A DNA stretch of 64,000 nt from Candidatus Nanoarchaeia archaeon. Lineage in GTDB: Archaea > Nanobdellota > Nanobdellia > Woesearchaeales > JANQNE01. Positions 6,839 through 60,586 of the stretch are shown in pieces. The first letter of the stretch is position 1; each line of letters starts with the position of its first letter. A program made the position numbers and the translations under genes. A model generated the notes under the pieces. It ran no database searches and was not told the origin of the DNA. It saw only the letters and a program-made list of their open reading frames with translations. Where the stretch lies: NCBI GenBank assembly GCA_028279725.1, contig JANQNE010000011.1, positions 151,872-215,871 on the forward strand. The letters run 5' to 3'.

Positions 6839-6933
6839 ATGCATATTGCGCTTCGTATCGATTTTTTTATTGAAGTGATCCAGATTTATCTTTTACAGAT
6901 ATCTTCCTGAGAACTTCGCCTGGTAATATGCAT
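6839..6933. ncRNA. Copy A of a repeated stem-closed intergenic element (candidate structured RNA)
   Basis: This about 95-base element opens with ATGCATATTGCGCTTCGT and closes with CGCCTGGTAATATGCAT. The outer arms ATGCATATT and AATATGCAT are perfectly complementary. Next to the stem it shares the inner boxes GCGCTTCGT (5') and a CGCYTGG-type box (3') with copies at 19151, 36596 and 50851, as well as an internal CAGATTTAT segment. Its stem sequence is entirely different from theirs yet still paired, the pattern expected of selection on RNA structure. The transcribed strand is unknown. It lies between the divergent FKBP and manC genes. Confidence 0.6.
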
Positions 6934-19094: not shown

Positions 19095-19150
19095 CCTATC
19101 ACCTAAATAAAAATTAGGTTAAGTAGTATTTAAAGGTTTCTATGTGTTGT

Positions 19151-19242
19151 GAATAGCACGCTTCGTTCGCTTCTGTGTCGGCAGGAGAAGCAGATCTATT
19201 TTAATAAAGATCCATATCTGATGACTACGCTCGGTGCTATTC
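19151..19242. ncRNA. Copy B of the repeated stem-closed intergenic element
   Basis: Outer arms GAATAGCAC and GTGCTATTC pair perfectly. Inside them are the shared boxes GCTTCGT and ACTACGCTCG, and an internal hairpin beginning CAGATCTATTTT and ending ATATCTG. About 92 bases, between the divergent coiled-coil and DUF357 genes. Compared with copy C (36596), the A-T pair near the base of the stem becomes a C-G pair, a compensatory change. Confidence 0.65.
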
Positions 19243-19278
19243 GATAGAATTAAATAAAAGAAGCTGTTCACAGCTTTT

Positions 19279-36595: not shown

Positions 36596-36690
36596 CACAT
36601 AGCACGCTTCGTTCTAATTCTGTTTTTAGATCTGTTCCAGATTCTAGCTGTCTCTGATGTTAATATGATGACTACGCTTGGTGCTATGTG
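36596..36690. ncRNA. Copy C of the repeated stem-closed intergenic element
   Basis: Outer arms CACATAGCAC and GTGCTATGTG pair over 10 bases. The inner boxes GCTTCGT and GACTACGCTTG match copy B, and an AGATCTGTTCCAGAT internal hairpin is present. About 95 bases between two minus-strand genes (XRE-CBS regulator and exchanger). Confidence 0.65.
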
Positions 36691-40894: not shown

Positions 40895-40976
40895 TGCATA
40901 GCACGCTTCGTCTGATGTTTAATCAATATAGAAACAGATTTATCTTAGATAAGAACATGTTTTTGAGAACTATGCT
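40895..40976. ncRNA. Copy D of the repeated intergenic element (decayed)
   Basis: The 5' side TGCATAGCACGCTTCGT is intact and the internal CAGATTTATCTTAGATAA hairpin is present. The 3' side reads GAGAACTATGC: it lacks the inner box and has only a short GCATAG/CTATGC closing pair. The 3' end abuts the stop of the GpgS gene. Confidence 0.5.
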
Positions 40977-41972
40977 TTATACATATAACCATTTAGGGTT
41001 TTTCTTGAACTTGTTCCTGTATTCTGTGACTGTAATGATAGGGGGGCGCTGTTTTTCCTGGATCTTTATCTCCTTAAGAGAGTAGTTGTCTTTGCTGTCA
41101 CGCTGGATGACCCTTAGTTTACGTTTTATATCTCTTACAAGGATAAGTTTTCCTAATGTGTTTGCTCTTTTAGCGAAGACCTGCAGGATTCCAAATGCCA
41201 TCTTGCTTAAGCTTGCAAGAGTCTGGTTTCTGTGTACTCTTCTTTTTAGGTCTACCTGAGCACATTTTCTCAAGCCGAATTTTTTCACTATGTCTATTAT
41301 TGTTGCTGTCTCAACACCATATCCTGTAAAGAAAGGGATCTTTTCTGCTATTGATCTTCTCATAGCATATTCTCCTGATAAAGGCTGGATAAAACCAGAT
41401 AATCTTGGAAAATACATGTTAAATAATGGCCTTATCGTTAGTTCTGTTACTCTTCCACCACCTAATGGAACAAGCTCTTTTCCTACTTTTATTGGCCTTT
41501 GATAGAATGATTTTGTAAATCCTATGTCTTTATTTGTAAGCAATGGGCCGACTAATCCATAAATCCATCTTGTGTGGATATTCTTTATGTCAGCATCTAT
41601 CCAGACTATTATGTCTCCTTCTGCAAGGAACAGTGATTTCCAAAGGTTTTCTCCTTTTCCTCTTCCTTTGCCTACTGCTTTAAGATGTTTTTCAGCTGTG
41701 AAGAATTTAGCTCCTGCTTTTTCTGAGACCTGTTTTGTCTTGTCTGTGCTTCCTGAATCAACAACTATTATCTCATCAACTAATTTTTTCTTTTTGTTCA
41801 TCAATGGTTTTAGTGTCCTTATTACTTTTCCGACTGTCGCTTCTTCGTTTAAAGTCGGGATACATACAGAAATCTTCAGCTTTTGCTTTTCTTTTAATTT
41901 TACAAGTTTGCCTATATCTTTGAATTCAGCAGACTTAAATTTCCTCTTTTTGAACCACTCCTCAACATCCAT
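40977..41972 (-). CDS. gpgS: Glucosyl-3-phosphoglycerate synthase (GT81)
   Basis: 331 residues, GT-A fold. KISVCIPTLNEEATVGKVI, IIVVDSGSTDKT, KGENLWKSLFLAEGDIIVWIDADIKN (DxD-type metal site), then GGGRVTELTIRPLFNMYFPRLSGFIQPLSGEYAMRR and FFTGYGVETA match GpgS. It makes glucosyl-3-phosphoglycerate from NDP-glucose and 3-phosphoglycerate, the first step to the compatible solute glucosylglycerate. Neighbouring HAD phosphatase and phosphorylase fit the pathway. Confidence 0.9.
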   Translation of the reverse strand: MDVEEWFKKRKFKSAEFKDIGKLVKLKEKQKLKISVCIPTLNEEATVGKVIRTLKPLMNKKKKLVDEIIVVDSGSTDKTKQVSEKAGAKFFTAEKHLKAVGKGRGKGENLWKSLFLAEGDIIVWIDADIKNIHTRWIYGLVGPLLTNKDIGFTKSFYQRPIKVGKELVPLGGGRVTELTIRPLFNMYFPRLSGFIQPLSGEYAMRRSIAEKIPFFTGYGVETATIIDIVKKFGLRKCAQVDLKRRVHRNQTLASLSKMAFGILQVFAKRANTLGKLILVRDIKRKLRVIQRDSKDNYSLKEIKIQEKQRPPIITVTEYRNKFKKNPKWLYV

Positions 41973-50796: not shown

Positions 50797-50850
50797 TAAC
50801 AAAACTAAAGATAAGAAGTTTATAAACTTTATTATTTTGTAAAATATGTG

Positions 50851-50949
50851 TGTGAATAGCACGTTACGCCAGATCATACGTCTGATCCTTGCGTCAGATT
50901 TATTTATATCTGAAAAAAATAAAGAAGGCTACACTTGGTGCTATTCACA
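50851..50949. ncRNA. Copy E of the repeated stem-closed intergenic element
   Basis: The longest outer stem: TGTGAATAGCAC pairs with GTGCTATTCACA over 12 bases. Inner box is CGTTACGCC on the 5' side and CTACACTTG on the 3' side, a concerted variant of the GCTTCGT/CTACGCTTG pair. Two internal hairpins occur (AGATCATACGTCTGATC and CAGATTTATTTATATCTG). Between two minus-strand genes. Confidence 0.65.
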
Positions 50950-50988
50950 TTCTAAAATATAAGAAATTTTTAAGAAATAAGAAAAAAA

Positions 50989-60205: not shown

Positions 60206-60586
60206 TCTGGACTTGATGAAAAAGATGATAGATATAAGCGGAATGGAAAACCAAGAAGCAAATACACTTTTTATGTCTGGAGACATACATTCGCAACATA
60301 CTGGATAAATAAAGGTCTTGGTGCAGCATATGTCAAAGAAGCGATGGGACATGCAAAGATGGACACAACAATAAATGTCTATTCGCATATTGAGAATAGT
60401 AACATCATGGATTCGATGAACGAGTTGAGGAATGGAAAACCAAAGGAAGAAGAACCAAAACCAATTGTTGCAGAAACATCAAAAGATGATCCAATAGCCA
60501 TAATCACACAGAGATATTTGAGAGGAGAGATAACTGAAGAAGAAGCAAAAAAGATGAAGAAATTTGTGGAGAAGGAGATGGTGTGA
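60206..60586 (+). pseudogene. Decayed tyrosine recombinase (integrase) fragment
   Basis: Only the C-terminal catalytic part remains. The frame is open from just after a TAG at 60203 and reads YTFYVWRHTFATYWINKGL then EAMGHAKMDTTINVYSH, the HxxR-H, GH-T and nucleophile-Tyr boxes of tyrosine recombinases (the first box His is Tyr here). Arg, His and nucleophile Tyr survive, but the N-terminal half and first catalytic Arg are absent and there is no start. The tail continues as a charged helix (TEEEAKKMKKFVEKEMV). It marks past integration next to the Argonaute gene. Confidence 0.75.

Follow-up and report, generated by a model that had tools for sequence, protein, structure and literature searches.

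Short palindromic elements, probably mobile DNA, with one orientation per contig in a Nanoarchaeia genome

Introduction

Prokaryotic MITEs are shorter than 500 bp, end in inverted repeats, occur in many copies at AT-rich intergenic sites and form stable stem-loops; as summarized in PMC10969869, direct repeats flank the younger copies and wane with time. The family described here is alike in those same size, end, repeat, site and stem-loop features. It differs from the MITEs of that account in keeping a conserved mismatched core across elements with different terminal repeats, in having no parent insertion sequence (IS) that we could find in its genome, and in a complete orientation relative to replication in the genome studied (PMC10969869). 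ERIC and similar palindromic elements, again as presented in PMC10969869, are also long imperfect palindromes in intergenic places, present in dozens of copies and lacking a known autonomous partner; by description our family is set apart from ERIC, being confined to one archaeal order and combining variable arms with a conserved core.

Two further systems involve DNA that is recognized as a single strand. REP/REPIN sequences with their Y1 transposase resemble the family in being intergenic hairpins, in their inverted pairs and in the logic of single strands and lagging-strand templates, as laid out in PMC6006769; a REP is a short hairpin, whereas our elements measure about 94 nt and have target duplications, with no Y1 transposase in two genomes that bear them (G000, the genome studied here, and G007). 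The attC sites of archaeal integrons, which PMC9668308 records also from Nanoarchaeota, are likewise folded single strands with variable arms, but our family forms no arrays and is accompanied by no integron integrase above cut-off.

Results

Copies in the window and in the genome

An earlier note, made from the letters of the window (the whole stretch of 64,000 nt that was analysed, from a Candidatus Nanoarchaeia archaeon of the order Woesearchaeales), had described four copies of an intergenic element of about 95 bases and proposed them as a new structured RNA. All four were confirmed in place, by reading the sequence and by covariance model R2, which puts them on the minus strand and finds five copies in the window altogether (Table 1). 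The decayed fifth copy, at 40895-40983, is flanked by two glycosyltransferase genes. The boxes said to be shared are more variable than had been stated: GCTTCGT is present in three of the four copies, the one at 50851 reading GTTACGC; the 3'-side box ACTACGCTTGG is exact in the 36596 copy and in no other of the four; and CAGATYTAT is found in three. By a simple ORF caller the copies do lie between genes, but some of the ORFs called extend into the element. Elsewhere in the window, positions 60257-60394 match part of a phage-integrase domain (PF00589 positions 125-169, E 9.8e-7) and may be what is left of an integrase.

Table 1. Element copies, core halves and flanking repeats in the window; the core halves were assigned from sequence and loop conservation
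Feature	Position	Strand	Remarks
Reported copy	36596..36690	-	arms 36596-36605 and 36681-36690; model R2 E 1.4e-18
3' half of conserved core (element orientation)	36606..36612	-	GC, GAA of the GNA/GNA loop, AC; plus-strand spelling GCTTCGT
5' half of conserved core (element orientation)	36671..36680	-	bulge CAA, GC, GTA, GT; plus-strand spelling ACTACGCTTG
Copy with a different arm family, TGCATATT/AATATGCA	6840..6932	-	R2 E 1.4e-16
Copy	19150..19243	-	R2 E 3.7e-19
Fifth copy, unreported before	40895..40983	-	R2 E 2.2e-11; five bases gone from one arm
Copy with slightly longer arms	50848..50952	-	R2 match 50853-50947, E 3e-18
Left 8-bp direct repeat TAAAATAT, putative target duplication of the 50851 copy	50840..50847	.	
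Right 8-bp direct repeat TAAAATAT, putative target duplication of the 50851 copy	50953..50960	.	

A blastn search with one copy revealed further ones elsewhere in the 1.42-Mb genome. Two covariance models were built, R1 from 12 copies and R2 from 74 copies of two genomes; the E-values of both are rough. By R1 the genome contains 41 copies at E <= 0.05 (39 of them at E < 1e-7), which is far beyond chance, distributed over contigs C1 (4), C2 (3), C3 (4), C4 (10), C6 (3), C7 (6), C8 (7), C9 (2) and C11 (2). They are mostly 88-95 bp long and mostly kilobases apart, the closest pair being separated by about 2 kb. Short, intergenic and in many copies, with arms that pair as inverted ends, they have the build of MITEs, whose terminal repeats measure about 4-30 bp. 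Nearest-neighbour identity is 0.65-0.77, with one pair at 0.85; from this divergence the copies appear to be old, with no sign of recent amplification of the family in this genome.

The boxes had been said to match no known family, and indeed no Rfam match in the window exceeds the gathering threshold; among the matches listed in an Rfam search of seven loci at E <= 1, none falls on the element.

Fold of the element

Read on the minus strand, the element consists of an arm, a bulge CAA, GC, GNA and GU, followed after the interior by AC, GNA, GC and the second arm. The closing stems do differ between copies and nevertheless pair, as had been noticed: all four quoted stems are present and paired, and in the larger set of 74 copies, drawn from two genomes, both partners have changed in 10 of 13 pairs, with a covariation score of 0.554 against 0.197 when shuffled. 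RNAalifold itself proposes the arms in a MAFFT alignment of 12 copies (10/15 pairs compensated). In the structure as named, 98.1% of cells pair and both partners vary in 8 of 13 pairs; no shuffle equals its pairing or covariation scores, and sliding the partners abolishes the signal. Mutual information among 37 own copies (L064-L067 and one inverted self-match left out), in an alignment that had been fitted to the covariance model, is strongest for the arms and for four inner GC/GU pairs. The fold is real for the arms and these four inner pairs. The internal hairpin of the original proposal did not survive: the 55-base interior gives no base-paired mutual-information signal in the 37 copies, and single-sequence folds of 12 copies disagree about it.

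Conservation is concentrated in the boxes, with a mean identity of 0.89, and in a motif AAUCUG, at 0.97, against 0.65 for the interior. A GNA/GNA internal loop with a free middle base occurs on the minus strand in 35 of the 37 own copies, and in four copies from other genomes (L112, L116, L118, L120) it is replaced by a GA/GA loop, one base shorter on both sides. Loops of both kinds can form sheared G.A pairs. Folding energy does not choose between the strands, the opposite strand being slightly more stable on average.

Flanking repeats and relatives

Exact direct repeats were sought near the edges of the 41 own copies: 11 copies have one of at least 6 bp, six of at least 7 bp (the 50851 copy being one of these) and three of at least 8 bp. 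The corresponding means were 2.6, 0.7 and 0.3 with permuted flanks and 3.3, 1.1 and 0.4 at AT-matched positions slid along the same loci, and the observed level of 6/41 for repeats of at least 7 bp was reached in 0/300 runs of either control. This excess over both controls points to DNA, even though 30 of the 41 copies lack a direct repeat of at least 6 bp. In other genomes, with wide offsets, the 8-bp threshold alone beat all permutations (10/33 versus 2.6).

The family is present in 23 of 352 genomes of the order, and in a sample of the phylum 17 of 371 genomes were positive, all in the same order; in the searches over more than 40 genomes only 11-12 candidates were scored each, and per-genome counts are lower bounds. 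In the relatives the hairpin is embedded in longer elements bounded by terminal inverted repeats, which again points to DNA. The elements of G310 enclose a single hairpin and have GGCTCTGTAGAAA-type ends; those of G307 and G304 enclose two hairpins, inverted to each other, and have ends of the GGCTCTGTCCCGAAT or GGTGCAGTCAAGT type. By-eye reading of 15 copies bounded by such terminal repeats gave exact 9-bp duplications for seven (two of them low-complexity), 8/9 for two, shorter repeats for two and an unclear result for four. An empty site was also found: a copy in G333 (G333:C64:7509) lies directly after a stop codon, and in its congeners G332 and G330 the gene has the same end but no element follows it. 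This evidence comes from one site, a second site in G333 having aligned too poorly to be read. No element position is shared between the loci compared, those of G331 and G330 on one side and of G333 on the other.

Two relatives are especially rich, G007 with 55 matches at E <= 0.1 and G262 with 48 at E <= 0.001. G007 has nearly identical copies (0.93-0.98), which shows that the family spread there recently.

Some observations on these relatives are noted in passing. (i) Several loci of G007 (L056, L068, L069, L070, L071, L073) have two hairpin subfamilies, with TGCATAGCAC and CCATTGCTGC arms, arranged as inverted pairs 7-9 bp apart whose 3' ends always face each other. (ii) A tRNA match in G007 spans 130 bases (L049 2518-2647), suggesting an intron-containing tRNA. 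(iii) G307 is rich in elements that have GGCTCTGT ends, a length of about 140-400 bp and 9-bp duplications (L307, L318, L302); the terminal-repeat pattern has 65 matches in this genome, and the AGAAA class there carries long hairpins of other kinds, not matched by the model.

When genome contigs were searched with a strict pattern, 18 stretches were found, 14 in one Nanoarchaeota genome (JAGLWF) and four in bacteria, which we judged to be chance. A viral origin was considered and rejected: in the search made for it the strict pattern gave no stretch, and the at least 120 given by a loose pattern were judged chance, without model scoring.

Orientation of the copies

All 41 own copies have one orientation per contig, uniform on each of the nine contigs, for which the chance is about 2 to the power -32. 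By GC skew, the element strand is the C-rich strand on 9/9 contigs; the skew is backed on C4 by the eight 8-kb blocks of the window and on C3 by three 20-kb stretches, and for single 3-kb flanks its sign agrees for 32 of the 41 copies. Only one strong match to Cdc6/Orc1 was seen, about 1 kb short of the right end of C3 (L350, G000:C3:194476-214475), where the GC skew is strongest. C3 may end near a replication origin, and with a presumed origin there the position fits a leftward-moving fork on C3 whose leading strand is G-rich.

Orientation is independent of the neighbouring genes, 21 copies having the same direction as the upstream gene and 20 the opposite, and 24 and 17, respectively, for the downstream gene. 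An orientation that ignores genes yet is uniform over a contig is a poor fit to a UTR or to a set of sRNA genes. A riboswitch in minus-strand 5' UTRs, proposed from the window, where each minus copy precedes a minus gene, was rejected over the 41 copies for this independence. Among the 31 copies with a stop-side neighbour, 19 lie within 3 nt of the stop codon where 11.4 were expected, a modest excess obtained with crude ORF calls, from which we claim no target preference for stop codons.

The uniform orientation, its agreement with GC skew on all nine contigs, the skew around Cdc6 at the end of C3 that fits an origin, and copies that are old but constrained are what might be seen if the element were of mobile origin but now domesticated, old insertions being kept because the folded DNA acts at replication forks (in pausing, priming or protein loading) and works in one orientation only. 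Other genomes speak against such a role: the bias is weak or absent in G224 (9/13, in regions with absolute skew above 0.05), in G331 (0/2) and in G007 (mixed), and most genomes of the order do without the family. We consider domestication rather unlikely. The full orientation bias is explained neither by symmetric terminal repeats nor by anything else tested.

RNA or DNA

Mismatches in the arm pairs comprise 4 G:T and 9 A:C among 516 cells in the own genome, where pairs are nearly all Watson-Crick, and 6 G:T and 1 A:C among 454 cells in other genomes (for this count L064-L066 were retained, and L067 and the inverted self-match were excluded). An RNA helix should accumulate wobbles, and because the excess of G:U expected for helices on a transcribed strand is absent, the stems point to DNA.

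The earlier note had taken compensatory change as a mark of selection on RNA rather than of a transposon, and had named flanking target duplications as what would speak for the latter; these were found in a minority of own copies and clearly in relatives, to which the empty site in two congeners and stems with no G:U excess are added. A structured non-coding RNA family on the minus strand, a small RNA or leader kept for its RNA function, would still account for the compensatory arms, for the GNA/GNA loop with its coordinated change to GA/GA, for the conserved AAUCUG box and for the constraint on diverged copies. It is at odds with wobbles in about 1% of cells, A:C being no rarer, with the flanking direct repeats, with the inverted-repeat context in relatives, with gene-independent orientation and with an interior that does not covary. 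The RNA reading is weaker than that of mobile DNA, and we hold it to be improbable; the family probably represents short palindromic mobile DNA insertions and not an RNA gene.

Search for a mobilising enzyme

No Y1 (HUH) transposase (PF01797) was found in G000 or G007, and DDE_Tnp_1 (PF01609) occurs in only four of 21 element-bearing genomes and not in G000. The full-length tyrosine recombinase of the genome is XerA-like, passing the cut-off of XerA_Arch and scoring 194.7 bits against integrase_gron, whose cut-off is 265; there are no cassette arrays among the own copies. One IS with a matching terminal repeat, a GGCTCTGTCC end, was found in G126 (L303); it encodes an IS5-like transposase scoring below the NCBIfam cut-off and lacks a hairpin of the family's kind.

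Neither the IS200/IS605-REP mechanism nor that of integron attC sites is expected to produce target duplications. It is very improbable that a Y1 transposase or a tyrosine recombinase moves the element as a folded single-strand site of either type: conserved mismatches in the hairpin, the replication-linked orientation in the own genome and the inverted pairs of G007 would suit such a site, but target duplications are seen, neither G000 nor G007 has the Y1 transposase, and the own recombinase is XerA_Arch, below the integron-integrase cut-off and with no cassette arrays.

Discussion

The copies are probably old insertions of mobile DNA, of a MITE-like element that is non-autonomous and measures about 95-105 bp. 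This reading is favoured because it brings together the direct repeats, the inverted-repeat context in relatives, the empty site, the patchy distribution, the lack of G:U excess and the gene-independent orientation. The 8-10 bp arms would act as terminal inverted repeats and so be the ends of the element, and insertion would duplicate some 7-10 bp of AT-rich intergenic target. The element carries no gene, and a transposase, neither a Y1 nor a DDE_Tnp_1 enzyme having been found in the genome, would be supplied in trans. Inside the arms, on the minus strand, the conserved core comprises the 3-nt bulge CAA, GC pairs, the GNA/GNA loop and GU/AC pairs, and after it comes the variable 55-base interior with its AAUCUG box. 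The same core recurs in the larger elements of relatives, inside other terminal repeats and in one copy or two inverted ones. Mobilisation or replication may involve recognition of this core as a single strand of folded DNA; that would explain why the mismatches are conserved, why arm changes are compensated at the DNA level and why the copies have a single orientation relative to replication.

Several facts stand against the MITE-like reading. The arms still pair and the boxes keep their identity over the interior, unlike in a decaying MITE; most own copies lack direct repeats, and the mobilising enzyme was not found. Nor does it explain a core common to elements with different terminal repeats. 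Template-switch correction of palindromes could keep arms paired, but not mismatches conserved.

A bolder proposal, which we regard as possible but unlikely, is that the core of a hairpin of mobile origin, with its GNA/GNA or GA/GA mismatches, is read at the replication fork while single-stranded and folded, and that elements with this core are inserted or tolerated only one way relative to fork movement, the roughly 40 old copies having become a fixed, polarised feature of this chromosome.

A search for literature on MITEs or inverted-repeat elements in DPANN, Woesearchaeota and Nanoarchaeota returned nothing on the subject, and a MITE-like family with this distinctive folded core is undescribed in the literature searched. 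The case also illustrates that compensatory stems alone are no proof of RNA, and that wobble counts and flanking duplications serve to separate RNA from DNA. The orientation of all 41 copies with replication is a sharp and testable oddity, and is the part most worth following.
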